Shown: one piece after another, positions 2,427-48,505 of the stretch
How positions within the stretch are numbered: the first letter of the stretch is position 1
Layout of the letters: each line of letters starts with the position of its first letter
Origin: Elusimicrobiaceae bacterium
GTDB lineage: Bacteria > Elusimicrobiota > Elusimicrobia > Elusimicrobiales > Elusimicrobiaceae
Length of the DNA: 54,417 nucleotides
Reading direction: 5' to 3'
NCBI GenBank assembly: GCA_028700325.1
Contig: JAQVSV010000007.1
Coordinates: 1 to 54,417, forward strand
The notes under the pieces: model-generated
The model's database searches: none
Told to the model about the DNA's origin: nothing
The model's input: the letters and a program-made list of their open reading frames with translations, nothing else
Made by a program: the position numbers and the translations under genes

Positions 2427-2543
2427 GCCAGGTCTTGCAGCCCTCCGGACTCAGGGTCCAATGGGTGATGCGGAGAGGCCGGTCCATATGGGATAATAAA
2501 CACAAGCCCAGACGTCAAAGACATATTGCCGCGCGGGGGACGC

Positions 2544-3167
2544 ATGAAGAAAATCTTATTGATGTTGTTTGCGGCGTTGTTTTCAGGCGGCGCCGCGGCG
2601 GTTGTCGGGCTGATGTCAAATGGCGCGTTCGCCACCGATGTGCTGAAAGTCACAAGAGTCAGTTTTCCTAAAAGTTTTAAAAACGCGCTGCCGCAAAATG
2701 CGGATCCGTCAAAAATGACGGCTTTTGACATTCTTGAACACGCCTACGCGAAAAGCAAATTTGTGCAGCCGCCCTATCTGCATACTTATGTGGGCGGGTG
2801 GGCGTTTTCGGCGGACCGGCCCGACGATAAAATGAAATTCTATCTGCTGGGCCAGAACCGGCCCGCGCAGTCGCCGGGCTATGATGATGTTTTCAATGGC
2901 GACGGGTTCCGGGTTGCGGCGGTATATTCCAAATCCGGCAGGGAAACAGGGCCGGAGGCGCTGCGCAGAATTTTCCTCAATATCCACAATGACATACTGC
3001 CCTGCACTACGGAGGGCAATGCGCTCAATCTTTCCAGCAGGGCCAGCCCGGACGACAGATTTTCCGTGCGGATTTTTTATCACCCGGACGGCTGGTGTTT
3101 TATCGTCCGGCACAGCAAGGCCGGGCAGGTCGTGGCGTACGCCTGTCTGGACGAGTATATAAAATAG
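2544..3167 (+). CDS. Exported protein of unknown function, tandem paralogue 1
   Basis: A 207-residue protein I do not recognise. ATG 2544 is chosen because GGGGGA precedes it and it starts directly with a signal peptide: 'MKKILLML', a hydrophobic stretch, then probable cleavage after 'GAFA'. The mature part has the pattern F-x-x-ALP, then TAFDILEHAY, then a 'GGWAFS' turn and 'MKFYLLG', and ends with 'WCFIVRHSKAGQVVAYACL'. The next gene (3181-3837) has the same order of motifs: FANALP, TAFSILERVY, GGHAFPS, VNFYLVG and YLVVKHTRNGKTAAYAYL. The two are clearly tandem duplicates, only 13 bases apart. Probably periplasmic. No catalytic motif is apparent. Confidence 0.8.
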   Translation: MKKILLMLFAALFSGGAAAVVGLMSNGAFATDVLKVTRVSFPKSFKNALPQNADPSKMTAFDILEHAYAKSKFVQPPYLHTYVGGWAFSADRPDDKMKFYLLGQNRPAQSPGYDDVFNGDGFRVAAVYSKSGRETGPEALRRIFLNIHNDILPCTTEGNALNLSSRASPDDRFSVRIFYHPDGWCFIVRHSKAGQVVAYACLDEYIK

Positions 3168-3180
3168 CGCGGGAGAATTT

Positions 3181-3837
3181 ATGCGTAAATCATTGCTGCT
3201 TGCCGGGGTGTTTCTTGTGTCGGGTTGCGCATTCGCCGGAGATACCCATGCCGTAGTCAAACTCGGGTTGCCGCCGGAATTTGCGAACGCATTGCCGGCC
3301 AGTGAAGCAGGTATGCGGGAACGGACCGCTTTTTCTATTCTAGAACGGGTTTATAAAGAGGGCTCGCTTCCACGGAAAAACGAGCTGAACGCCGTCTGGG
3401 GCGGACATGCGTTTCCTTCCGGCAGGCAGAATTCCGCCGTGAATTTTTATCTGGTCGGACGCCAGATTTATTTCAGCATGATCATAACCGACAAATTCGG
3501 GTTTGGCCGGTACGGCCCGCCCAGAAACCCGCAGTTTTCGGTGATGGCGGTGTATAAAAGATTCGGAACCGCGACTTGCGTAAAACTCAAGGAACGGTTC
3601 AAGAAAAACGAAAATGTGCTGATGCCATTGGCGGCGGAAGGCGCCGATTCCATGTATGCCGCCAGCAAAGACAATTTGCAGGATCGGTTTTACCTGCGCA
3701 GGTACGGTAGCTATCTGGTCGTCAAACATACCCGCAACGGCAAAACCGCGGCCTACGCTTACCTTTTCTACCGGCTTGACCACGAGGGCCTGAGCGAAGA
3801 GGATTTTACGCAGGAACCGTTCAATGAAGCCGAATAA
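3181..3837 (+). CDS. Exported protein or lipoprotein, tandem paralogue 2
   Basis: A 218-residue unrecognised protein, the second copy of the duplicated pair. It starts 13 bases after paralogue 1, with GGGAG ahead of the ATG. Its N-terminus 'MRKSLLLAGVFLVSGC' contains a plausible lipobox (V-S-G-C16), so it may be a lipoprotein, although cleavage after 'AFA' by ordinary signal peptidase is also possible. The core shares FANALP, TAFSILERVY, GGHAFPSG, NFYLVGR and VVKHTRNGKTAAYAYL with its neighbour, and it adds an acidic C-terminal tail (EGLSEEDFTQEPFNEAE). If one copy is a lipoprotein and the other soluble, they may act at different places. Function unknown. Confidence 0.8.
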   Translation: MRKSLLLAGVFLVSGCAFAGDTHAVVKLGLPPEFANALPASEAGMRERTAFSILERVYKEGSLPRKNELNAVWGGHAFPSGRQNSAVNFYLVGRQIYFSMIITDKFGFGRYGPPRNPQFSVMAVYKRFGTATCVKLKERFKKNENVLMPLAAEGADSMYAASKDNLQDRFYLRRYGSYLVVKHTRNGKTAAYAYLFYRLDHEGLSEEDFTQEPFNEAE

Positions 3838-4281: not shown

Positions 4282-7200
4282 ATGAGGACATACAAACATT
4301 GGCTGTCAATTCTTGCATGTATAGCGCTGAGTCTGGCGTTCGCGTGCGAGAGCTTGCTTGCCGCGCAGACTTCCGGCGGCGCGCTTCTGGGGTTTGAATA
4401 TGAGGCGTATACCCCGTTCACCGGCGAATATTCAAATGCTACGCAGCGTGAAGCCTGGCGCAACACCATGGTTCAGATGCTGAAAAGCGCGGGGCAGGGT
4501 GAGAGCGCGACGGATATTGGGCGGTGTGCCGCATTCAAAACCGGCAAAAAGGCTTTTTCCAGCTGTATTCTGGAATTCGCGCCGTATCTGACGGCCGATG
4601 ACATGTCGAACATTTACCGGGGTGTGACCAACACCGCTTTTGAAAGCGGCAGTTTTGCCGCTCCGTCTGATAAAACAGTTCTTACGCCGGCGGCGGCTTT
4701 GTTCATGTACGCTGACACCCTCAAGCCTTCCGGCCGCGCCTATGCCGATGCCGAACCCCCTTTTGTGGCGCGCCAGTACAGCGCCGACGGCGGCACGAGC
4801 GATTACACGAAGGAAGAATTGCTTTCGCTGCTTACCCGGGTTCGCAAAGATATTGCGCCCTGCTCTGACATATCCGCAAAAAACTGTGATCCCGTGTATG
4901 CCGATGTGGCGTGGTTTGTTGACAAGCGCGGGCTTGCTGCCGACAGTACCGCAAAAAACATGCTGCTTAACGCCGACAGGCTTAAAGCTGATCTGGCCAT
5001 GAACGCCCATGTGGCGAAAGCTGTTGCAAAAGATGGCGATTACCAATCAATATTAAGCGGCGCGTTTTCCGATCCGGTTTTGTCCGGCTACTTCAAGTTT
5101 GACGCCAACAAATACGCCCAGGCCAATAAAACCGATTATAGCCGGTTTGTTTCGAGACTGGGCAAGTATTACAACGCAAATTCCTTGTCACCTGATAAGG
5201 TGTCAAGCGTGGTCGGCAATTCCGCGTCGGCTCAGAAAGCTGTGAAAGGCGCGGCACCTGTGGTGCAGACCCCTTCAGATTCGAAGCAGTCCGCCGCATC
5301 AGCTTCCCGTGCCAAGGGAAAAACCGGAAAGAGCAAGAATGCCGGCGAGAGAATTGCCGATGCCGCAGGCAGCGAGAGTGACGGTGACAGTGAATCGGTT
5401 TCCGAGAAAGGGCAGGAAAAATATGCGGCGGGTTATTCCTCTGTATATGGTCCGTCAGGTGTTTCCGGAAGCACCCAGAATACCACCAATCCTTATGGTT
5501 CCAGCAGCATGTTTGGCAACATGTCCGGCAATAAAAATGGTATGAGTGGCATGTCTGGCGGTATGTCGTCCGGCATGGGTGGTGGCGGAGGCGGTATGTC
5601 GTCCGGCATGGGCGGCGGCGGAGGTGGCGGAGGAGGAGGCATGTCGTCCGGCATGGGCGGTGGTGGCGGTTCTCCCCAATCTGTTGCTGCGCCTGGTGTG
5701 GGCGGAAGTCGTGCAATGGCCGCAAATTTAAATGCTTTCATGGGCGGAGGTCCGCATAGCGGCGGTTCTTCCGGCCCGGCTTCAAGCCGTGAAGCGAAAA
5801 AGCCGAAAATTTCGCAAGATTATTCACTGGGAAATTCAGGTCAGGCCATTGCGCCAGGCGCGAGTGTTGCCGGTCCGGCAGATGATGCTGAGAAATCAGC
5901 ACGGCATAAAATGCCCGCTTTGCCTTCACCGTTCGAAACGCTGAAGGCGGTTATGGCTAAAAGAGCTGAAAGCACGCCGGCGGTTTCACCGGCGCCGGAA
6001 GATAAAAACGGGTTTGATGATTTTGCGGCTTTTGATTTCGGTGATTTCGGCGGCGGAGGCGGTGGTTTTTCCGGCGGTGATTTCGGAGGGTTCGGAGAAG
6101 CGGATTTTTCGGGATTTGGCAATACCGGGTCTTTTGGCGCGGTGGCCGCCGCGGGTGACCCCTGGAGCGAAAGCCCCGACGGTTTTAACAAGTTGTCCGG
6201 CGAATTTCCAATGCTGAACGATCAAACCGATCCTTTTGCCGATTTTGAAAGCGCGGGTAATTATCAGGCAGCGGCTGTTGCCGCCAGGGATCCGTGGGAG
6301 TCGGTATGGGATTCGGAGGCTGATTCCCCGGCTGCGGCCATGCCGGGCGGTTCGGTTAAACCCGAGGCCTATGCGATGAATTTTTCCGGCGATAAGCAGG
6401 GCGCTGTCGAACTTCCTGTAAATCTTGCCGTGCATTTAAACAAAGCGATGTCCAATCTGGAACTGAAACGGTATCCCGCAGTGTTGAAAGAATGCAACGC
6501 GGTGCTTGAGCGGGTTCCTGATAATGTGCAGGCTCTTACTCTTACCGCTTCGGCTTATATGGGTATGGACGAGTACGGAAGAGCTTACAATTCGGCTTAT
6601 CGGGCTGTCGCGGCGGATGCCAATTCCGAGCAGGCGCTTGCCGCGCGCAGCATGGCGGCCGAGAAACTGGATAAATATAAGGAAATGCTGGGTGATTTGA
6701 AAGTGCTGGCTGAATTAAACCCTGACAGGTATAACGAAAAATTTCAGAAAGCAATTCTGATTTATGCCGCGGAGCAGGCGCCGGAATTTCTGGTATATTC
6801 CGATGGCAGGCATGCCAGGCCGGCGGTTGCGGCTGTTGGCGGCGGGGCTAAAATGTCACACGCGCTTAAATGGGTGCTTTCGATTATCCTGTTGGGTGGC
6901 GCGGCGATGCTGCTGTCGTTCGTGCTGCCCAAAATGCTGCCGCAGGACAAGGAATTTGCCATGGCGGGGCCTGACATGGCGGCTGCGGGCGTGACCGCGG
7001 TGCTTAATCAGGGCTCGTCCGCCGTGCGCAACAAGGATGACGAGGACGAGTTCTCCGGTACTATTGTCGGCGGCAAATACCGGATCAAAAACATGATGTC
7101 GGAAGGCCTTTACGGCAAAGTGTTCCACGCGGTTTCGCTTAGTTACGGTTTGCCGGTGGTGATACGCGAAATAGAGGGTTTGTCCGCTCGTTCGGCGGAG

Positions 7201-8106
7201 CGCGTGGAGTCCATGTTCGCCAAATTCACGCCGCTGCGGCATTTGAATATTGCCGAGACGCTGGGTGTGATAAAAGAGGATTCTTCGCTGTATATCGTGT
7301 CCGAGCTTATTGAAGGCACTTCGCTGCACGCGTTGCTCGAAAAACAGGACAGGTTGCCGCTAAGAACCGCTCTGCCGATATTTAGGAATATCAGCAAAGG
7401 GCTTGATTTTCTGCATTCGCGCAATAACGCGAACGGCGGGCTGCATCTGTCGGATGTGATTCTGGACGGCGATGAGGGGTTTTGCCGGATTGTCAATGTG
7501 GGCCTGGGCACCATTATCAGGCGCGACGGCGGCATTTACAAGGCTTACATGGCGCCTGAGGGGGTTGCGAAGGGATTCTCAGTCCAGTTCGATATCTATT
7601 CGATGGGTGTCTGCCTGTACAAAACGCTGACCGGAGTATTGCCTGTCGGCAATTACCGGCTTCCCAGCGAAATGGTGCCCGCGCTGCCGAAAACCGTTGA
7701 TACTCTGATTGCTCAGGCGTTGGCGGCTGATCCTCAGGAACGGCTTGATTCTGTCAGCGAGTTTTATAACCTGCTTTCCCAGGCCGCGGACGAAGCGGGT
7801 GCGGCAGGAGCGGATAACGCCGGTTTGTCTGCGCTGCCGGCGGGCGCCGCCGGGGTTGAGGTGCCCGCGCCCAAAGAGGCTGGTATGCCTGAATCGGCGG
7901 CGGAAGCCATGCTTTCGCCCGCGCAGGATGCCGCTCCCAAAGCTCGTGGGCCGCGGCCGGCGCTCAAGCCCAGACTTAAAGTAAAAACGCTCGATATCCG
8001 CAAGCTGCTGCATGTGTTTTCGAGCGCAAAAGAAGACGGCCCGATTGAAAATGGGCGGGTTACCGGATTGAAAGAAACCGCCGCCGATACTGAAAAAAAA
8101 GTCTGA
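4282..8106 (+). CDS. Gly-rich/TPR membrane protein with C-terminal pseudokinase domain
   Basis: A 1274-residue protein. It has a signal-like N-terminus (1-28), an extracytoplasmic region, and a Gly/Met/Ser tract of repeated GGMSSGMGGGGG units at about 419-463. A second Phe/Gly/Asp-rich tract is at about 578-618, TPR-like helices at about 716-828 and one membrane span at about 861-884. A Ser/Thr-kinase fold occupies about 930-1167, followed by an Ala/Pro-rich tail. The kinase fold keeps 'EGLYGKVF', 'MAPE' (1090-1093) and the alphaF Asp1104 in 'FDIYSMGVCLY'. However, the VAIK lysine is Arg962, the HRD aspartate is Leu1054, the metal Asn is Val1059 and DFG reads N1072-V-G. It should therefore be a catalytically dead pseudokinase, acting as a scaffold or ligand sensor. 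The topology places TPRs outside and the kinase fold inside. GAGGAC precedes the ATG. Confidence 0.85.
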   Translation: MRTYKHWLSILACIALSLAFACESLLAAQTSGGALLGFEYEAYTPFTGEYSNATQREAWRNTMVQMLKSAGQGESATDIGRCAAFKTGKKAFSSCILEFAPYLTADDMSNIYRGVTNTAFESGSFAAPSDKTVLTPAAALFMYADTLKPSGRAYADAEPPFVARQYSADGGTSDYTKEELLSLLTRVRKDIAPCSDISAKNCDPVYADVAWFVDKRGLAADSTAKNMLLNADRLKADLAMNAHVAKAVAKDGDYQSILSGAFSDPVLSGYFKFDANKYAQANKTDYSRFVSRLGKYYNANSLSPDKVSSVVGNSASAQKAVKGAAPVVQTPSDSKQSAASASRAKGKTGKSKNAGERIADAAGSESDGDSESVSEKGQEKYAAGYSSVYGPSGVSGSTQNTTNPYGSSSMFGNMSGNKNGMSGMSGGMSSGMGGGGGGMSSGMGGGGGGGGGGMSSGMGGGGGSPQSVAAPGVGGSRAMAANLNAFMGGGPHSGGSSGPASSREAKKPKISQDYSLGNSGQAIAPGASVAGPADDAEKSARHKMPALPSPFETLKAVMAKRAESTPAVSPAPEDKNGFDDFAAFDFGDFGGGGGGFSGGDFGGFGEADFSGFGNTGSFGAVAAAGDPWSESPDGFNKLSGEFPMLNDQTDPFADFESAGNYQAAAVAARDPWESVWDSEADSPAAAMPGGSVKPEAYAMNFSGDKQGAVELPVNLAVHLNKAMSNLELKRYPAVLKECNAVLERVPDNVQALTLTASAYMGMDEYGRAYNSAYRAVAADANSEQALAARSMAAEKLDKYKEMLGDLKVLAELNPDRYNEKFQKAILIYAAEQAPEFLVYSDGRHARPAVAAVGGGAKMSHALKWVLSIILLGGAAMLLSFVLPKMLPQDKEFAMAGPDMAAAGVTAVLNQGSSAVRNKDDEDEFSGTIVGGKYRIKNMMSEGLYGKVFHAVSLSYGLPVVIREIEGLSARSAERVESMFAKFTPLRHLNIAETLGVIKEDSSLYIVSELIEGTSLHALLEKQDRLPLRTALPIFRNISKGLDFLHSRNNANGGLHLSDVILDGDEGFCRIVNVGLGTIIRRDGGIYKAYMAPEGVAKGFSVQFDIYSMGVCLYKTLTGVLPVGNYRLPSEMVPALPKTVDTLIAQALAADPQERLDSVSEFYNLLSQAADEAGAAGADNAGLSALPAGAAGVEVPAPKEAGMPESAAEAMLSPAQDAAPKARGPRPALKPRLKVKTLDIRKLLHVFSSAKEDGPIENGRVTGLKETAADTEKKV

Positions 8107-8131: not shown

Positions 8132-8160
8132 AACCCCCGGCGCAAGCCGGGGGTTTCGTT
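8132..8160 (+). terminator. Rho-independent terminator
   Basis: An 8-bp perfect stem CCCCCGGC/GCCGGGGG (8134-8141 and 8146-8153) with a GCAA tetraloop, flanked by AA and TTTCGTTTT. It lies 25 bases after the pseudokinase stop. A very similar hairpin recurs at 34714-34734. Confidence 0.8.
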
Positions 8161-8239: not shown

Positions 8240-8713
8240 TCAGAGTTTCAGGGCCGAGGTGTCGGGCAGGGTGCGGTAGAGCGCGTGAAAAAGCGCGATT
8301 GCCGCGGAGGCGGACAGATTGAGCGAACGCACGTCGCCGGAAACGGGGATTTTGAACAGCCGGTCGCTGTAATCAAGGTAGATGTCCGGCGGCAGGCCGG
8401 CCGATTCGCAGCCGAAAACGAGGCAGCTGTCGGGGTGGTACTCGGCGGTCCAGAAACTGCGTGCGCCTTTCGTCGAGAAAAAAATCAGCCGGTCGCGCGG
8501 GAATTTCCGGAGCGTCATAAACTCTCCGAAATCGGCATATCGGAAATATTGCAGTTTAGGCCAGTAATCCAGTCCGGAGCGGCGGATGGCCTTGTCGTTA
8601 ATGTCGAAGCCGAGCTTGCCGATCAGGTGCAGGGTGCTTGCGGTCGCCACGCAGGAACGGCCGATGTTGCCGGTGTTAAAAGGTATTTCGGGATTGACAA
8701 GCGCGATATGCAT
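8240..8713 (-). CDS. trmL: tRNA (cytidine/uridine-34 2'-O)-methyltransferase TrmL
   Basis: A 157-residue SPOUT (SpoU-family) methyltransferase that methylates the 2'-O of the wobble base in leucine tRNAs using SAM. All three SPOUT motifs are visible: 'NPEIPFNTGNIGRSC' at the N-terminus with the catalytic Arg, 'CLVFGCESAGLP', and 'IPVSGDVRSLNLSASAAIALF' in the trefoil knot. The length equals that of the family (about 155). No Shine-Dalgarno precedes ATG 8713. The upstream sequence is AT-rich, with TAAAAT six bases ahead of the ATG, so translation may be leaderless. It converges with the pseudokinase gene and follows the phosphorylase gene, from which it is separated by a strong terminator. Confidence 0.92.
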   Translation of the reverse strand: MHIALVNPEIPFNTGNIGRSCVATASTLHLIGKLGFDINDKAIRRSGLDYWPKLQYFRYADFGEFMTLRKFPRDRLIFFSTKGARSFWTAEYHPDSCLVFGCESAGLPPDIYLDYSDRLFKIPVSGDVRSLNLSASAAIALFHALYRTLPDTSALKL

Positions 8714-8783: not shown

Positions 8784-11339
8784 TCATTCTTCCCATTTGA
8801 TAAACATAGGCGTGAACGGGTGCGGAATATTTTCATGCCGAGGAATAACCCGTAACGCGTAGTCGTGCCGGCCGCTGTGCTCGGCGGGCAGGGTCAGTTC
8901 GTAGAGCTGGGCGTCGCCGTCGGTTCCGGCGTGGCGCATTTCGAACGGTTTGCCCTGTATCTCGCCGTGGTAGTCTATCTGGCCCAGATACAGCTGTACC
9001 GACACGTCCTGCGGGGCCAGTTCGCCCAGCCAGACTTTCGCGGTGCAGTGTATTGCGTCGCCGGCCAGTATTTCAACCTTCTGCCGGGTGGAGGCGGAAT
9101 TGTTCACGATATGCACTTTTGACCAGTTTTCCGCGATTTTATTGCGCCAGGCGGCTGTTTCGCGCGCGTTGTTCTGGGCCAGCATGGTTTTGCCGTAGCG
9201 GTGTGCCGGAATGTACATGGTGTTGTAATATTCCCTCACCATGCGGTGCGTATTGAACACCGGCGCGATTTTCCGCACCGAGCGTTTCATCATCCTGATC
9301 CAGCGGACCGGAATGCCGCTTGCGTCAATATCGTAATAAAGCGGTGCGATCTCTTTTTCAATCAGGTTGCAGATGGCTTCGGATTCCACGTTGTCGCGTT
9401 CGTCATCGTCATTGTAATGCTCGGAGCCGCCCACCGACCAGCCCACGTCGGGCGTGTTCGCTTCGCCCCACCAGCCGTCCACTATCGAAAGATTGAGCAC
9501 TCCGTTGATGGAGGATTTCATGCCGCTCGTGCCCGACGCTTCCATAGGCCGCACGGGGTTGTTAAGCCACACGTCAACGCCCTGTGTGAGATAGCGCGCC
9601 ACGTTCATGTTATAGTCTTCGACAAACAGCAGTTTGCCCTTAAACCGTTCGTCCTCCATCAGCCGCGCGATGAATTTGACCAGTTCCTTGCCCAGCGTGT
9701 CGGCCTGATGCGCTTTGCCCGCGAAAACGAGCTGGATAGGCCGCTGCGGGTTGTTCACTATCCGCGCCAGGCGGTCGAGATCCCGGAAGATCAGGTTGGC
9801 CCGTTTATAAGTGGCGAACCGGCGCGCAAACCCGATTGTAAGGGTTTTGGGGTCGAGCATGCGGTCTACGGCTTCAAGCACCGTAACGTCCGCGCCGAGG
9901 CGCTGCATCTGCCGTTTATAGCGCAGGCGCGCCATTGCGATGAGTTTTTCCTTGCGGATTTTGTGGGCGGCCCAGAATTCTTCGTCCGGGATGGAGTCAA
10001 TCGCGTCCCATTTAATGACGTCGGCGGGATTATGGATTGATTCGGCCGACCCGTCGCCCATATACTTGCTGTAAAGCGAAATATGCTCGTGCGAGATCCA
10101 TGACGCGGTGTGCACGCCGTTGGTTATGCTGCCGATCGGGATTTCCGTGAACGGCAGTCCCGGCCAGACCCGCCGCCACATGTCGCGCGAAACATCGCCG
10201 TGCAGTTTGGAGACGCCGTTGGCGTAAGCGCACATCCTGAGCGCGAGCACCGTCATGCAGAAGGTGGCCGAATCGGCGCTTTCTTTGCCCATGTCAAGAA
10301 ACTTGTCCCAGTTGATGCCCATTTGCCGGGTGTAGATCTCCATGTAGCGGCGCACCAGCTCCGGGTCGAAATGCTCGTTTCCCGCGATAACGGGGGTGTG
10401 GGTGGTGAATACGGAGCTGGCCCAGACCGTTTCACGCGCTTGGTCAAATGAAAGCTGTTTTTCCGCCATGATCTGGGCCGCACGTTCCAGCAGCAGAAAC
10501 GCGGAATGGCCTTCGTTGATGTGATACACCGTGGGGGTTATGCCCATAGCCCTGAGCGCGCGAACTCCGCCGATCCCCAGCACTATTTCCTGCCGGATGC
10601 GGGTATTGCGGTCACCGCCGTAGAGCTGTTCGGTGATAGTGCGGTGGTAGGGCGGATTTTCAGGAAGATTGGTGTCGAGCAGATAAAGCGACGTGCGCCC
10701 GACCGGTACCCGCCATATGCGCGCGCGAATATTTTCCGATCCGAGCGGCACCTCCACCGTCAGCGGAACACCGTCCCGGGTGTGGATGAGCTCTACCGGC
10801 ATGTTGGCCCAGTCGTTCTCCGGGTGGCGTTCCACCTGCCAGCCGTCGCGGTTGAGTACCTGCTGGATATAGCCTTTCTGATAAAACAGCCCCACTCCGA
10901 TCAGCGGCAGGCCGAGGTCGCTGGAACTTTTAAGATGGTCGCCGGCGAGCATGCCCAATCCGCCGGAATACATCGGCAGGCCTTCCCCTATGCCGAACTC
11001 CATGGAAAAATATGCGACAAGCGCGTCATTTTCCTGCGGAGCATGGTTGTCGGTGAACCAGGTTTTCCGGTTCTTGTAGTCGTCAAACACCCGTTTGATG
11101 TTTTGCAGTTTGGCTAAAAATTCGTTATCCCGGCTGAGTTCCGCGATGCGTTCCTCGCCCAGACTGCCCAGCACCCATTTCGGATTGCGGTGCGAGCGTT
11201 TCCATAGCGGATCGTTCATGCTTACGAACATGAGTATCGCGTCCCAGTTCCAGGTGAACCACATATTCTGGGTCAGTTCGCCCAGCGCCTGCAGATTGTC
11301 CGGCAGTTTGGGCGTGACATTGAAGGAATGAATTTTCAT
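8784..11339 (-). CDS. glgP: Alpha-glucan (glycogen/maltodextrin) phosphorylase
   Basis: An 851-residue cytoplasmic enzyme of glycosyltransferase family 35, the GlgP subgroup with the N-terminal DUF3417-type extension. It releases glucose-1-phosphate from alpha-1,4-glucans using PLP. Visible signatures are 'MYSGGLGMLAGDHLKSSSD', 'YHINEGHSAF', 'RFATYKRANL' and the PLP region 'EASGTSGMKSSINGV', whose Lys608 should bind the cofactor, followed by 'VDGWWGE'. ATG 11339 is chosen because GGAGAGGAA precedes it and the family begins with this short 'FNVTPKLP' strand; further upstream the frame is open but has no start signal. The gene stands alone between a terminator and a long intergenic region. The same window holds a ROK sugar kinase, but not close enough to be linked. 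Confidence 0.95.
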   Translation of the reverse strand: MKIHSFNVTPKLPDNLQALGELTQNMWFTWNWDAILMFVSMNDPLWKRSHRNPKWVLGSLGEERIAELSRDNEFLAKLQNIKRVFDDYKNRKTWFTDNHAPQENDALVAYFSMEFGIGEGLPMYSGGLGMLAGDHLKSSSDLGLPLIGVGLFYQKGYIQQVLNRDGWQVERHPENDWANMPVELIHTRDGVPLTVEVPLGSENIRARIWRVPVGRTSLYLLDTNLPENPPYHRTITEQLYGGDRNTRIRQEIVLGIGGVRALRAMGITPTVYHINEGHSAFLLLERAAQIMAEKQLSFDQARETVWASSVFTTHTPVIAGNEHFDPELVRRYMEIYTRQMGINWDKFLDMGKESADSATFCMTVLALRMCAYANGVSKLHGDVSRDMWRRVWPGLPFTEIPIGSITNGVHTASWISHEHISLYSKYMGDGSAESIHNPADVIKWDAIDSIPDEEFWAAHKIRKEKLIAMARLRYKRQMQRLGADVTVLEAVDRMLDPKTLTIGFARRFATYKRANLIFRDLDRLARIVNNPQRPIQLVFAGKAHQADTLGKELVKFIARLMEDERFKGKLLFVEDYNMNVARYLTQGVDVWLNNPVRPMEASGTSGMKSSINGVLNLSIVDGWWGEANTPDVGWSVGGSEHYNDDDERDNVESEAICNLIEKEIAPLYYDIDASGIPVRWIRMMKRSVRKIAPVFNTHRMVREYYNTMYIPAHRYGKTMLAQNNARETAAWRNKIAENWSKVHIVNNSASTRQKVEILAGDAIHCTAKVWLGELAPQDVSVQLYLGQIDYHGEIQGKPFEMRHAGTDGDAQLYELTLPAEHSGRHDYALRVIPRHENIPHPFTPMFIKWEE

Positions 11340-11852
11340 TGGTTCCTCTCCGCGTGTAATTTCCCGGATAAAGCGCGCTCGGTTGTGTGCTGCGGTATTA
11401 TCTCGGCTGTGAAAAGTATACAAAAATATGAAAACGCCTTCCTTGATGCGATCCGGGCGTCAAATATGCCATGTGGCGGGATTTCAGCCTGCACAATGCG
11501 CAGTGCGGCTAATGGCTGTCGAAATAGGTATAATCTCTATGTGTTGTGGAATGGGGGAAGGAAATGAAACCAGCATTTGGATTTATTGTCGCGACAAGCA
11601 TAGGTTTGTTTGCGGGAGTTTCCGCCTTCGCTTATTCGCCTGCCGGGTACCCCGGCGCGGTGTGATGCCGGGGTCAAGTTTGCCTGGCCGTATTATACCG
11701 AGCTGTATGAATATTCACCGCGCCACAAAATAAACGCAAACAGCCATTGCCGTGGCTAAAAACAGAATTCTTGTTTTATGAAGCCCGGCGGTATTGAGTC
11801 CGGCCATAGCTATATGCTCCCCCCGATTGCTGGTGACGGTTCGTTCCCGCGG
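11340..11852. other. Long intergenic region with a gene remnant
   Basis: There are 513 bases between two minus-strand genes. The only structured content I can support is a TATAAT at 11529-11534 (no clear -35) and a broken plus-strand signal-peptide gene at 11564-11759. Other open frames here lack start signals. No terminator was found for the OB-like gene that ends at 11853. Confidence 0.5.
11564..11759 (+). pseudogene. Remnant of a small exported-protein gene
   Basis: GGAAGG precedes ATG 11564. The first 33 codons read like a signal peptide ('MKPAFGFIVATSIGLFAGVSAFA', shown in part) and then stop at TGA 11663-11665. Shifting frame at about 11650-11661 restores a protein-like stretch ('GVKFAWPYYTELYEYSPRHK') that runs to TAA 11757-11759. 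A TATAAT (11529-11534) lies upstream. This looks like a truncated or frameshifted exported protein, not a working gene. The alternative is a genuine 33-residue peptide. Confidence 0.35.
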
Positions 11853-22293: not shown

Positions 22294-25200
22294 ATGGAAA
22301 AACTACGCAGGAGTTTTATAGAAGTGGCGCTAAAACACCAGACCGTGGTGGTGACGGTTTGCGCCATTTTATGTGTGCTGGGCATTTATTCGCTTATGAC
22401 AATGCCCCGGCAGGAATTCCCGGAATTCAAGGTGCGGCAGGGGCTGGTGATAGCGGCGTTCCCGGGTGCGTCTTCCAACCAGGTTGACGAACAGCTTGCC
22501 AAGCCTTTGCAGAATTATCTGTTCCGGTACAAAGAAATTGACCGGGAAAAGACTTATTCCGTTTCCAAGGAAAACCAGACCATAGTTTTTGTTGAAGTGA
22601 AAGAGAATGTCAAAGAGCCGGAAATATTCTGGGCTAAACTGCGGCTGGGGCTGCAGGAGTTCAAATCGGAACTCCCGTCGCAGGTGGTGATGCTGGTCGG
22701 GAACAATGAATTCGGCGACGCTTCCGCCATTCTGCTTACCGTCACATCCAAACAGCGCACTTACCGGGAGCTGGAGGATTACCTCGCAAAACTTGAAGAT
22801 AAGATCCGTCAGCACCCGGCGGTTTCGAATGTAAAAAAATTCGGGCTTCAGAAAGAGAAGATAATTGTCTACGCCGATCCCAACCGGCTGGCTCATTATG
22901 GTGTCAAACCCGCGCTTTTAATGGGCGCTCTGCAGATGGAAGGAATGCTGGGTTACGGCGGCTATATCAAGGACAGTGATCTGGAACTGCCGATCCACCT
23001 GCCTCCCCGTTATAATTCCGAAGCCGATGTGGCCGAACAGATCGTTTTCTCCTCGCCCGACGGCGCTATCGTGCGCGTGCGCGATGTGGCCCGCGTTGTG
23101 CGAGAATATGACGTGGAAGACTCCTATGTGGAATGCGAAGGCCGGCGCGCGCTGGTGCTTTCGATGGAAATGCGATTTGGCAATAACATAGTTTCGTTCG
23201 GCAAGGATATAGACAGGATCATAGCCGATTTCAAGGCTGACAGTCCGGCCGATCTGGAAATAGCCAAAGTAGCCGACATGCCTAAAGTGGTGAGCGCTTC
23301 GCTGCATCACTTCTTCAGGGATTTCGGTATGGCGATTCTCGCGGTCATTCTGGTGGTTATTCTGCTGCTGCCGCGCAGAATAGCCATGGTGGCGGCGGTC
23401 ACTATTCCCATTTGCATTTTGCAGTCGCTGGGCATCATGCAGGGGCTGGGGGTTGAACTTAACACCATTTCGCTGGCCGCGCTGGTTGTCGTCCTGGGCA
23501 TGGTGGTGGATAATGCCATAGTCGTCATTGACAACCATGTGGAAAAGCTGGATCACGGTATTGACGTGCGAACCGCCGCCTGGTCCAGCGCGCGCGAACT
23601 GCTGATTCCGGTGTTTACGGCTACTCTCGCCATTGTGGCGGTGTTTGCCATGCAGCCGATCTTCATGACCGGCATGGCGCGCGATTTCATCGGGCCGATG
23701 CCGGTCACCATAGCGGTAACGCTTTTCGTTTCCATGTTTATCGCCATGCTGCTGGTGCCGGCGCTGAGCTGTAACTTCATAAAAACCGGTCTGCATGAAC
23801 ATGGCAAGGGGCCGGAGAAAAAGGGAAAGCCTTCCCTGCTGGACAGATTGCAGGAGTTCTATAACCGCCATCTGGAAATATCAATGGCGCATCCCGTCCG
23901 GACAGTATGGATAGGAATTGCCGCCATTGTGCTGGGGATCTTGATGTTCACTTTGCTGCCCCAGCAGCTGATGCCGGCGCTGGAGCGTGACCAGTTCGCC
24001 GTGGAAATGTATTTCCCTGAAGGGACCAGCCTGGCAAGAAACGCGCAGATTACCGGGCAGATGGTGAAGATTCTCAAGGCGGATAAACGAATAAAAACAG
24101 TAGTTTCCTTTATCGGCACCAGTTCGCCCCGGTTCCATACCCTGTACGCGCCGCAGATGCCGGCCAAAAACTATTCCCAGCTGATCGTGATGACCGAGTC
24201 CGTAAAGGCCACCGAAGACGTTGTGCGGGAGTATGACCGGAAATATCGCGACGCATTTCCCGGTGCTCATGCGCGTTTCAAACAGATAAGTTTTCTGTCA
24301 GCCGAGGCGCCTGTTGAAGTGCGCATTTCCGGAGACAGCATCCCGGAAATCAGGGCTTTTGCCGACAAGGTGCGCGCTGTCATGGCGCAGGACGGGGATA
24401 TAACCTGGCTGCGTGACGATTACCGCAACCCCCGCATCGCGGTGGATCTTGACGTGAACCGCGAGCTCGCCAACCGGCTTGGCGTAAACCGTGCCATTCT
24501 GGGCCTGTCTTGTGCGCTCAACCGTAACGGTATTCCCATAACCAAAGTGTGGGAGGGGGATTACGCCAAAGACGTGGTGCTAAAATACGACGAGTCAAAA
24601 ACCTCTTCGCCGGAAGAACTGGAAAACCAGTATGTAACTGTGCCGTTGTCGCCCAAAGCCCTGCCGCTGCGCCAGCTGGCGGGTCTGAAACCGTCGTTTA
24701 GCGAGGGCCAGATAGTCCGGCGCAACGGCCGGCTTACCATGACACTGCGCGCCGATGTCGCGGCGGGCAAGCTGTTCACTCCGGTTCAGAACCGCATAAG
24801 CGAAAAGCTTGCGGCGCTTGACAAGCCTGAATCCATAGCCGTTAGCTATGGCGGGGAACACCAGCTGTCGGGTGAAACGTATGTGCCCATGGTCGAGTCG
24901 CTGATTGTCAGCATTATCGTGATATTCGTTGTGCTGTTGTTCCAGTTTCAGAGCATACGACTTGCCCTGCTTGTGATGATTACCATGCCGCTTAGCATTA
25001 TCGGCGGCATGGCGGGTCTGAGTCTGGTCGGCATGCCTTTCAGCATGACGGCGCTGCTGGGCCTCACCGCGCTGTTCGGCACGGTAGTGCGCAACGGTGT
25101 TATTTTAATAAGCTACGCCCGCGAACTGGAACACGGCGGCATGCCGCTGAAAGAAGCGGCGTTTGCCGCCGGCAAGCGCAGGATGCGGCCGATTTTTCTT

Positions 25201-26697
25201 ACCGCCGCGGCGGCGGCTGTGGGCGTAATACCGCTGATGACCTCCGGTTCCAGCCTGTGGGGGCCGATGGGCGCGGTGATCTGTTTCGGGCTTATCGGTT
25301 CCACAATACTTACTCTTTATGTGCTGCCGGTTGCGTACTGGAAGTACAGCGGCGATGAGGAAGAAACGGCGCGGGGGGGGGCGGTTATGAGAACAAATAA
25401 ATCCCTATTCATGCTGGCGCTGCTGGCGTGTCCGGTTTTTTGTGCGCAGGCATCCGCGGGCATGACTCTCGCTGATTATAAAAAACAGGCTCTGGCGCAT
25501 AATAACGAACTCAAGCAGTCGGCGCTGGAAGACGAGGCGGCGCAGCAGGCCGTGCGGTCCGCTTTCACCAGCTATTTCCCGAAAGTGTCGGCTGTGGGCG
25601 CGATGGGGACGGCCAATATCATTCCGGGGCTGGCGGTGATGTCGGGGATGCCGTCTGTTTTGTCGCCGTTGAGCAGGGCGGACGGCTACGCCTTGTCCAT
25701 GCTGGTGGCCCAGCAGCCGGTTTTTGTCGGCGGACGGATAGTCAACGGCAACCGGCTCGCGCGGGTCGGCGCGGCGGCGGCGCACGAGCAGTTTCAGCTC
25801 AAGCGTGACGAGGTGCTGCTGGAGTCGGAAAAAAAATACCGGCGCCTTCTGGTGCTGGAGGAAAAACGCAAAACCCTGCTTGCTTACGCCGAAATGCTCG
25901 AATCGTTATACAAGCAGGTGAACCAGGCGGCGGGGCTGGGTCTTGTCACGCGCACGGATGTGCTGCGGGTGGGGCTGAAGAGAGCGGAGCTCGGCGCGTC
26001 CAGAACCGAACTGGAAAAGGGGATTGCGCTGGCCCAGCGCGATTTAAGGCTTTACGCCGGACTGCCGGAAGGCGATCCGATAATCCCCTCCGCCGGGCCG
26101 GACGTGATAACCGAGCCGGTTTATAACCGGCAGTATCTGGCGTCGCGCCTGAGCCTGCGCCCGGAATACCGGCTTTTGCAGGCGAACGCGGATGCCGCGA
26201 AACTGCAGCGCAAAATGAAAACCGGCGCGAATCTTCCGCTTGTGAGCGTGGGCGCGGCGATTAACCGGCTGGACGCGCTGTCAAGCGGCGGAACGTTTCA
26301 GAACAGTCTTGGCTTTGCCGTGGTCAGCGTTCCTTTGAGCGACTGGTGGGGCGGCTCGCATGACGTGAAGGAAAAACGGCTTAAGGAAAATGCCGCGCAG
26401 GTCAGGCTGGAATCCGTGGCTGACTATCTGGTGCTTGACATGGAAAGCCGGCTGAAAGATTATGAGCAGGCTTATCAGCGTGTTGCCGTCGCCCGGCTGG
26501 GTGTGGAAGAGGCTGACGCAAATAAATCCGAAATCGAGGACGGCTATAAGAACGGCACTGAAAAGCTGTCCGATCTGCTGGAGGCGATGGCTTTGCAGCA
26601 GCAAAGCCGGGATAGACTGAGCGAGGAAACCGCCGGGTATTTCGCGGCCAGAACCGCGTTTGAGATAGCGATTTCGGCTGTATCCGCTGATAACTGA
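22294..26697 (+). CDS. RND efflux permease read in frame into a TolC-like outer-membrane factor
   Basis: One open frame of 1467 codons. Residues 1-1031 form a full HAE1-type RND permease. It has TM1 'TVVVTVCAILCVLGIYSL', two large periplasmic loops, TM4 with 'VVDNAIVV' (Asp406 followed by Asn407 where AcrB has two Asp), and a C-terminal half ending 'LYVLPVAYWKYSGDEEE'. Codon 1032 is ATG 25387, which starts a typical signal peptide and a TolC-type protein. The join is a run of nine G's (25373-25381). With eight G's the RND frame would stop at TGA overlapping that ATG (ATGA), the normal layout for such operons. So this is either a sequence error, a slippage or phase-variation site, or a true polyprotein. 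The RND identity is certain; the fusion is not. Confidence 0.9.
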   Translation: MEKLRRSFIEVALKHQTVVVTVCAILCVLGIYSLMTMPRQEFPEFKVRQGLVIAAFPGASSNQVDEQLAKPLQNYLFRYKEIDREKTYSVSKENQTIVFVEVKENVKEPEIFWAKLRLGLQEFKSELPSQVVMLVGNNEFGDASAILLTVTSKQRTYRELEDYLAKLEDKIRQHPAVSNVKKFGLQKEKIIVYADPNRLAHYGVKPALLMGALQMEGMLGYGGYIKDSDLELPIHLPPRYNSEADVAEQIVFSSPDGAIVRVRDVARVVREYDVEDSYVECEGRRALVLSMEMRFGNNIVSFGKDIDRIIADFKADSPADLEIAKVADMPKVVSASLHHFFRDFGMAILAVILVVILLLPRRIAMVAAVTIPICILQSLGIMQGLGVELNTISLAALVVVLGMVVDNAIVVIDNHVEKLDHGIDVRTAAWSSARELLIPVFTATLAIVAVFAMQPIFMTGMARDFIGPMPVTIAVTLFVSMFIAMLLVPALSCNFIKTGLHEHGKGPEKKGKPSLLDRLQEFYNRHLEISMAHPVRTVWIGIAAIVLGILMFTLLPQQLMPALERDQFAVEMYFPEGTSLARNAQITGQMVKILKADKRIKTVVSFIGTSSPRFHTLYAPQMPAKNYSQLIVMTESVKATEDVVREYDRKYRDAFPGAHARFKQISFLSAEAPVEVRISGDSIPEIRAFADKVRAVMAQDGDITWLRDDYRNPRIAVDLDVNRELANRLGVNRAILGLSCALNRNGIPITKVWEGDYAKDVVLKYDESKTSSPEELENQYVTVPLSPKALPLRQLAGLKPSFSEGQIVRRNGRLTMTLRADVAAGKLFTPVQNRISEKLAALDKPESIAVSYGGEHQLSGETYVPMVESLIVSIIVIFVVLLFQFQSIRLALLVMITMPLSIIGGMAGLSLVGMPFSMTALLGLTALFGTVVRNGVILISYARELEHGGMPLKEAAFAAGKRRMRPIFLTAAAAAVGVIPLMTSGSSLWGPMGAVICFGLIGSTILTLYVLPVAYWKYSGDEEETARGGAVMRTNKSLFMLALLACPVFCAQASAGMTLADYKKQALAHNNELKQSALEDEAAQQAVRSAFTSYFPKVSAVGAMGTANIIPGLAVMSGMPSVLSPLSRADGYALSMLVAQQPVFVGGRIVNGNRLARVGAAAAHEQFQLKRDEVLLESEKKYRRLLVLEEKRKTLLAYAEMLESLYKQVNQAAGLGLVTRTDVLRVGLKRAELGASRTELEKGIALAQRDLRLYAGLPEGDPIIPSAGPDVITEPVYNRQYLASRLSLRPEYRLLQANADAAKLQRKMKTGANLPLVSVGAAINRLDALSSGGTFQNSLGFAVVSVPLSDWWGGSHDVKEKRLKENAAQVRLESVADYLVLDMESRLKDYEQAYQRVAVARLGVEEADANKSEIEDGYKNGTEKLSDLLEAMALQQQSRDRLSEETAGYFAARTAFEIAISAVSADN
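25387..26697 (+). CDS. TolC-like outer-membrane efflux factor (internal start of the fused frame)
   Basis: The 436 residues from ATG 25387 form a self-contained outer-membrane factor. A signal peptide ('MRTNKSLFMLALLACPVFCA') is followed by 'MTLADYKKQALAHNNELKQS', the standard beginning of TolC-family proteins. Two repeats of long coiled-coil helices with small barrel strands come next ('YFPKVSAVGAMG', 'QQPVFVGGRIVNG', 'GTEKLSDLLEAMALQQQS'). It would be cleaved and exported as the outer-membrane channel for the pump. G-rich sequence just upstream could act as its ribosome site. I list it apart because it probably acts as a separate protein whichever way it is made. Confidence 0.75.
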   Translation: MRTNKSLFMLALLACPVFCAQASAGMTLADYKKQALAHNNELKQSALEDEAAQQAVRSAFTSYFPKVSAVGAMGTANIIPGLAVMSGMPSVLSPLSRADGYALSMLVAQQPVFVGGRIVNGNRLARVGAAAAHEQFQLKRDEVLLESEKKYRRLLVLEEKRKTLLAYAEMLESLYKQVNQAAGLGLVTRTDVLRVGLKRAELGASRTELEKGIALAQRDLRLYAGLPEGDPIIPSAGPDVITEPVYNRQYLASRLSLRPEYRLLQANADAAKLQRKMKTGANLPLVSVGAAINRLDALSSGGTFQNSLGFAVVSVPLSDWWGGSHDVKEKRLKENAAQVRLESVADYLVLDMESRLKDYEQAYQRVAVARLGVEEADANKSEIEDGYKNGTEKLSDLLEAMALQQQSRDRLSEETAGYFAARTAFEIAISAVSADN

Positions 26698-46987: not shown

Positions 46988-48505
46988 TCAATCCGGGTGC
47001 AGGAACCGGCCTTCGGAATTAAAAGAATCATTTTCGCTGAAATGCGAGGCGGTGAATGTCAGCAGGGTTGTGTCTTTGGCGGTATAGCAGTTCGCCGCAA
47101 GCCCCGCTTTCTGGGTGCAGAGCTCGCTTAAAAATTCCTCCCTGGTTTTTAACTTCTCCCATACCTGCGGCAGAAACACTCCGCTTTTCCCGCCGGATAC
47201 GACAATCACGCCGTGTACTGCCGGTTTGATGGCGCGCCAGCCGGCGGCAACCGCCGGCTTTGACAGGATTGAAATCTCGATCGTGACGTCGTTTTCCTCT
47301 TTCGGCGCAAGCGGCGCGAACCGGTAGTCCGACGTTGCCGCCGCGCGCGCGTAATAAGCCACCGCGTCGTTAAGCGCGCCGTGCAGTTCCACCGTGCCCA
47401 GGCAGCCGCGCAGCGTGCCTTTTTTTGTAAGAGTTACAAATACCGCCGCCGGCAGGTTGAGGACGGGGTCGCTCGTGTGCGGAATCTGGAACCGGGCGCC
47501 GGTTATCCCGGAATGCAGCGCCTCGCGCGCGAGTTTCAGAAGATGCCGTTTTTGCTGTTTTGTGAGGCTGATTGCGGCGGCGGGCGCATTCGGGGTTTTT
47601 AAAAAAAGCATTCCGCCGTAACCCACAACGCTCGAAGCCGAACCGTATTGCGACTGTGCGGAATTGGCGTATGCCACTTGCTGAGCCCGGTTCGCGCCGG
47701 CGGCTGCCGCATATGCCAGCCCCGCTTCAAGCGCGGCTTTGCCGCAGGTTGTGCAGGAAAGGCCTTTAAGCTCTTTCGCCATGATGATCCGGTCGGTCAG
47801 CGCGAAATAATGGGGATCCATGAATTCCAGCGCTTTCAGGATCGTCAGGTCCGACAGTTCCGCCGTATTCTTGTCGGGGTAATGCGACAGATCCGCCGAT
47901 ATTACGCACAGCGTTGTTTCTGTGTCCACCGCTTCCGCCAGCGCGCGGCCCGTTTTTACGGCGGCATCCGTGTCGAGATCGCCCAGCGCTACCGGGATGA
48001 TCCTGAAATCTTTCAGTATTGTCTGCAGAAAAGGCAGCTGCACTTCTATTGAATGTTCCTTTTCGTGCGCCCTGGGCAGGTTCTTAAACAGCCGGTTCTT
48101 TAGCAGTCCGGCTATTGTTTCGGTGTCCGCTGCAACCGTGCCGAGCGGAGTTTCGAAATCTTCCGAGGTCAAAAGCGCACCCTGCCCGGCCGACGCATGC
48201 GCCGTGCCCAGTATGATAACCGTTTTATAGCTGTCAGCCAGGCGGCGGTAAACTTTCCCGGCCGCTTCGCCGGAAAAGGTATAGCCGGCGTGCGGAACCA
48301 GCGCCGCCTCGGCGTGCACTGCGGGTTCGCCTTTTTCCGGCGCAAGAAACCGATTCATCAGGTCCCGCAGTTCCTGCCTGTCCGCCGGATAGAATTGCCC
48401 GCAGGCATAACATGCGCGCGCTTCGGCGCGCGCCGGAACCTGCCATGCAGGCAGTGCCAGAGCGGCGGTCAGCACGGCGATTTTTAAAGCCGGTTTTAAA
48501 GGCAT
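46988..48505 (-). CDS. Exported Memo-AMMECR1 fusion (AmmeMemoRadiSam B+A)
   Basis: A 505-residue fusion. Residues 1-27 are a signal peptide ('ALALPAWQVPARA'). Residues about 33-305 are a Memo-like domain: 'FYPADRQELRDLM', 'PHAGYTFSGEAAGKVYRRL', 'EHSIEVQLPFLQ' and 'SADLSHY'. The probable metal ligands are His72, His103 ('GTAHAS') and Cys254 ('CGKAAL'). Residues about 313-500 are AMMECR1-like, with Cys368 in 'RGCLGT' and 'FAPLAPKEENDVTIEISIL'. In other genomes A and B parts sit beside a radical-SAM enzyme, which is absent here. Export is unusual, since the best-known family members are cytoplasmic. It is followed at once by the membrane polyferredoxin. Confidence 0.92.
   Translation of the reverse strand: MPLKPALKIAVLTAALALPAWQVPARAEARACYACGQFYPADRQELRDLMNRFLAPEKGEPAVHAEAALVPHAGYTFSGEAAGKVYRRLADSYKTVIILGTAHASAGQGALLTSEDFETPLGTVAADTETIAGLLKNRLFKNLPRAHEKEHSIEVQLPFLQTILKDFRIIPVALGDLDTDAAVKTGRALAEAVDTETTLCVISADLSHYPDKNTAELSDLTILKALEFMDPHYFALTDRIIMAKELKGLSCTTCGKAALEAGLAYAAAAGANRAQQVAYANSAQSQYGSASSVVGYGGMLFLKTPNAPAAAISLTKQQKRHLLKLAREALHSGITGARFQIPHTSDPVLNLPAAVFVTLTKKGTLRGCLGTVELHGALNDAVAYYARAAATSDYRFAPLAPKEENDVTIEISILSKPAVAAGWRAIKPAVHGVIVVSGGKSGVFLPQVWEKLKTREEFLSELCTQKAGLAANCYTAKDTTLLTFTASHFSENDSFNSEGRFLHPD

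Follow-up and report, generated by a model that had tools for sequence, protein, structure and literature searches.

A putative type-I transmembrane pseudokinase with TPR-like repeats and its syntenic ortholog in the Elusimicrobiaceae

We analysed a 54,417-nucleotide stretch of DNA (the window), which is contig 7 of an Elusimicrobiaceae genome of 2.21 Mb in 128 contigs, 99% complete. An ORF of 1274 codons within it encodes a kinase domain (PF00069, aa 934-1125, E 2.8e-21) that is the weakest match among the five Pkinase loci of this genome (Table 1). The neighbours that could be identified are trmL, glgP, and oxidoreductase and aconitase/isocitrate dehydrogenase-like genes. The pseudokinase gene is flanked by a promoter-like site and a bidirectional hairpin, sites of a kind no commoner here than in shuffled sequence, and no co-directional gene follows it; it is therefore probably transcribed singly. 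Upstream, on the plus strand, 2526-3167 and 3181-3837 encode tandem paralogous, secreted-looking proteins (34% identity) with no Pfam match. Having no match in the second genome described below (G003), they are not counted among its candidate partners.

Table 1. Features of the pseudokinase gene and its downstream flank, in window coordinates.
Feature	Position	Strand	Basis or remark
Type-I membrane pseudokinase ORF, 1274 aa	4282..8106	+	RBS-like AGAGGACGG 5' of ATG
N-terminal signal peptide or signal anchor, aa 1-29	4282..4368	+	hydropathy
Orphan N-terminal domain, aa 29-320	4366..5241	+	no homologue in 59 relatives
Gly/Met/Ser-rich tract 1, aa 412-463	5515..5670	+	
Gly/Phe/Asp-rich tract 2, aa 576-619	6007..6138	+	
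TPR-like repeats, 3.5, aa 714-836	6421..6789	+	AF2 pLDDT mostly >90; homologues with strong TPRs here
Transmembrane helix, aa 861-886	6862..6939	+	hydropathy, AF2
Pseudokinase domain, aa 931-1167	7072..7782	+	Pfam, AF2, PDB matches, key residues
VAIK motif, here VVIR, aa 959-962	7156..7167	+	
HRDLKLSN motif, here NGGLHLSD, aa 1051-1058	7432..7455	+	
Shortened activation segment NVG...APE, 22 residues, aa 1072-1093	7495..7560	+	
Bidirectional terminator-like hairpin between pseudokinase and trmL	8132..8155	.	such sites in region not above shuffles
SpoU/TrmL-type methyltransferase (trmL), convergent, synteny anchor	8240..8713	-	
Glycogen/starch phosphorylase (glgP), synteny anchor	8784..11423	-	

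Hydropathy gives only two strong hydrophobic segments, at about aa 7-28 and at aa 861-886, and the C-terminal kinase is therefore predicted to be cytoplasmic, with or without cleavage of the first; by the same reasoning the TPRs would be extracytoplasmic. These repeats fall below the Pfam cut-off (best E 0.009, on a fragment) and were recognised through homologues and an AF2 model. The initial annotation had proposed predicting the structure of the kinase region and searching for proteins of the same domain order together with their neighbours. The prediction (aa 705-1175, 42-sequence alignment, mean pLDDT 81) returned 3.5 TPR-like helix pairs, the transmembrane helix and a kinase fold with both lobes complete, for which Foldseek placed S. 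aureus Stk1/PknB closest in the PDB and mycobacterial PknA and PknE high in the list. The search led to an ortholog beside trmL and glgP, although no related locus was found with the full-length protein as query. The proposed combination of a single membrane span, TPRs and a pseudokinase is thus borne out by hydropathy, the model and homologues. The two Gly-rich tracts noticed at the outset could also be located; both lie in a low-complexity linker between the N-terminal signal and the TPRs, and a 33-bp tandem repeat makes up part of the first. Ahead of them, the N-terminal domain had no homologue among the 59 relatives searched, and its single-sequence AF2 model was uninformative (pLDDT 42).

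Key residues were compared with those of 29 active homologues, in which the VAIK Lys, the HRD Asp, the catalytic-loop Asn and the DFG Asp are invariant; further active homologues that we extracted also keep the Lys and both Asp residues. In the window kinase, Arg962 and Val960 replace the Lys and Ala of VAIK, the first Gly of the P-loop GxGxxG is Ser940, HRD reads Asn1051-Gly1052-Gly1053, the HRDxK Lys is His1055, and DFG reads Asn1072-Val1073-Gly1074. The loss of three catalytic anchors had been claimed from the start, correctly for Arg962 and Asn1072; the HRD Asp, however, had been assigned to Leu1054, one residue away from the Gly1053 that fills its column. The APE Glu1093 and the alphaF Asp1104 are retained, as had been noted, and so is Arg1154. 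What had been overlooked is the catalytic-loop Asn, the partner of the DFG Asp, which is now Asp1058. In active kinases these two residues together hold the metal; here they have been exchanged, the Asn for Asp1058 and the Asp for Asn1072. The domain agrees with the general definition of a bacterial Ser/Thr pseudokinase, a kinase fold (from AF2 and Foldseek) with at least one of the VAIK Lys, HRD Asp and DFG Asp lost (R962, G1053 and N1072). With all three gone, the P-loop damaged and the activation segment shortened, canonical phosphotransfer appears very unlikely.

Could the swapped pair still bind a divalent cation and nucleotide, and so permit nucleotide-dependent switching or some unorthodox activity, in the way that SelO and SidJ use other residues? 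In favour of such a site, the exchange is present in the window protein and its ortholog and in none of the 29 active homologues. However, the P-loop is degraded, the Lys is gone in both proteins (R and N), Val has replaced the VAIK Ala in both, and the activation segment is short, and we consider a working site of this kind quite unlikely. The window's genome encodes a second degenerate kinase (L004:1-1731, G000:C94), with ALR for VAIK, HSDLTPAN and DFR; its kinase domain is N-terminal and a transmembrane segment follows later.

Relatives were sought among 60 relatives and then 149 genomes of the order. Most genomes of a sister family within the Elusimicrobiales encode an active kinase with the same order of signal, TPRs, transmembrane helix and kinase (e.g. 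Elusimicrobia bacterium GWB2_63_22, L134), and the catalytic residues are intact in every one that we extracted. A TPR-transmembrane-kinase profile matched these proteins with E values down to 1e-76, over positions 12-503 of 507, and in these parts the window protein can be aligned end to end with the Elusimicrobiales family. It differs in its catalytic residues, in its length (1274 aa versus mostly 820-940 aa), in its Gly-rich tracts, to which those inspected have no counterpart, and in its locus. Its neighbour genes are absent from those shared by the active sister-family genes. Within the window's own family, the genera with small genomes have shorter active kinases instead. As to origin, the tree does not tell descent of the two pseudokinases from the sister-family type apart from descent from the own-family type (AU p 0.58). 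The initial annotation had looked to homologues with intact catalytic residues at shifted positions as evidence against a pseudokinase; distant homologues do have intact residues, at unshifted columns, and the syntenic ortholog is degenerate as well.

This ortholog (L028/L065) comes from G003, a genome of another genus of the same family, and has VIN, YGVLRPTD and NVG. We regard it as an ortholog because gene order is conserved between its contig and the window, from the pseudokinase through trmL and glgP to further genes. The gene is truncated on its 5' side by the end of the contig, up to which the reading frame is open, and the Gly-rich tracts can therefore be described for the window protein only. 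No kinase was found at the trmL locus in four other genera of the family, where glgP adjoins trmL or lies near it, and no third pseudokinase above the level of the active relatives was found in 341 genomes of the phylum.

The two pseudokinases share more than their place. Their DFG-APE segments are both 22 residues long, compared with 26-30 in active homologues (one has 47, with an insert). Both differ from the active homologues at 28 columns that do not vary among the latter; at eight of these the two have the same replacement, including V960, D1058, N1072 and V1073. They also group as a clade (support 95/87 and 97/98), but on very long branches of 3 to 4 changes per column, so that the tree alone is weak support for a shared dead state and it is the locus and the shared states that carry the argument. 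Catalysis might instead have been lost twice, if the ancestral gene at this locus encoded an active kinase. The Lys and HRD Asp were replaced differently (R/N and G/V), and the window kinase is 34% identical to active kinases and only 27.5% to its ortholog. Nevertheless, higher identity to slow-evolving relatives is what would be expected of two long branches, and with V960, D1058, N1072, V1073 and the 22-residue segment in common we find independent loss highly improbable.

That a related genus carries the same dead version at the matching locus suggests that this version is probably kept for a non-enzymatic signalling role, and the long open frame and well-predicted fold point likewise to a kept function. 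A decaying gene, open merely by chance, would account for the very long branches, the missing kinase in the four other genera and a GC3 of 0.59 against 0.73-0.75 in the neighbours. Such decay is very doubtful, in our view, given 1274 open codons, a fold predicted with high confidence, and an ortholog that is open to its contig end and has derived states in common. It must nevertheless be counted against our preferred explanation that the kinase domains of the pair are 27.5% identical, versus 57% for the two active paralogs that these genomes encode, so that constraint would seem to be weak or the function shifted, as far as two sequences can indicate.

Transmembrane bacterial pseudokinases are already known, and the initial statement that no system of this architecture had been described was too strong. 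The closest solved folds, those of PknB/Stk1-type receptor kinases, belong to active proteins with an N-terminal kinase and a PASTA outer domain. The mycobacterial MviN pseudokinase (ActPs3) is membrane-bound, has lost all motifs and has an activation-loop deletion, like the window protein; however, it is actinobacterial, has VALT/Y-- motifs and is joined to a peptidoglycan-synthesis membrane protein, whereas the window protein's chain matches nothing beyond kinase and, weakly, TPR models, and no MviN/MurJ membrane protein was found in it. EssB/YukC of type VIIb secretion and TraF of plasmid pIP501 are transmembrane pseudokinases with degraded motifs and a TPR-like outer domain (PMC12599244, PMC13037476). 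The activation loop of YukC is reduced, as here, and the outer domain of TraF is helical and TPR-like. In these proteins, which belong to another family and have secretion partners, the kinase is N-terminal and the outer domain C-terminal, the mirror image of the order in the window protein.

By this likeness of parts, the window protein might serve an envelope or secretion complex as its structural hub, in which the pseudokinase would recruit cytoplasmic components and the TPRs outer ones, with no link to kinase signalling. We think this unlikely. The Pfam YukC/EssB family gave no match even at E values of up to 10 (a weak one may be lost to the HMMER filters), no T7SSb locus or secretion gene was found among the neighbours identified, FHA domains were found in neither genome, and the kinase is close kin to signalling kinases. 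An FHA partner is unsupported for the same lack of domains. Matches in PADLOC and NCBIfam (PD-T4-6, MAD6, PknB) were also set aside; they lie far below the NCBIfam cut-offs, and reflect generic kinase-domain similarity, and no defence context was seen. A review that defines ActPs1, ActPs2, GLW, CP1, DYD and DLHK mentions neither TPRs nor Elusimicrobia, and in the open-access papers that we searched we found neither a type-I TPR-transmembrane-pseudokinase of Elusimicrobiota, nor its active counterparts, nor the metal-ligand swap. Therefore, the protein appears to be of a known kind, while its type-I form in Elusimicrobiota and the swap appear, within those papers, to be new.

We suggest, with a probability of roughly one half, that the window protein is a receptor-shaped, non-catalytic pseudokinase derived from active type-I membrane Ser/Thr kinases of the Elusimicrobiales, acting as a scaffold or allosteric partner. 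The evidence for this lies in the degenerate active site, the predicted kinase fold, the architecture of the active relatives and the syntenic ortholog with the same losses. The ancestor would have had a signal peptide, outside TPRs, one membrane span and an active cytoplasmic kinase. The outside TPRs and their Gly-rich tether may bind an envelope ligand or partner, and the inside domain would transfer no phosphate and would instead provide a platform for binding or act allosterically on a partner. Both pseudokinase genomes also encode an active TPR-transmembrane-kinase, adjoining an OMP-like gene, recN and nadK; in the window's genome it has 870 aa (G000:C5) and weak TPRs. It would be the most plausible partner, although its locus is unlinked to that of the pseudokinase. 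The signalling scaffold first proposed thus stands as the best reading, but not as an isolated architecture, since active kinases share the order.

Kinase/pseudokinase receptor pairs are familiar from eukaryotes, for example ERBB3 and the plant receptor pseudokinases. By analogy with EssB/YukC, TraF and MviN, and with eukaryotic receptor pseudokinases (PMC8141879, PMC11259431), a scaffold or allosteric role seems most likely. A bolder version, in which the type-I TPR receptor pseudokinase allosterically controls its active paralog and the charge-swapped metal site still senses cation or nucleotide, would make this a bacterial counterpart of such pairs, but we hold it to be a long shot.

Bacterial pseudokinases have barely been studied outside a few families, and those with a receptor-type, eukaryote-like topology, in which the sensor comes first and outside and the kinase last and inside, even less. 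Active and dead versions of the same receptor architecture coexist here, at identifiable loci, in two genera, and how catalysis gave way to non-catalytic signalling can therefore be tested.

Elsewhere in the window, a single plus-strand ORF (22294-26697), preceded by TetR and HlyD-type adaptor genes, fuses an AcrB/CusA-type RND pump (PF00873) to a TolC-type outer membrane efflux domain (PF02321); fusions of RND pumps with TolC are known elsewhere. On the minus strand, 46988-48505 encodes Memo and AMMECR1 domains in a single protein.
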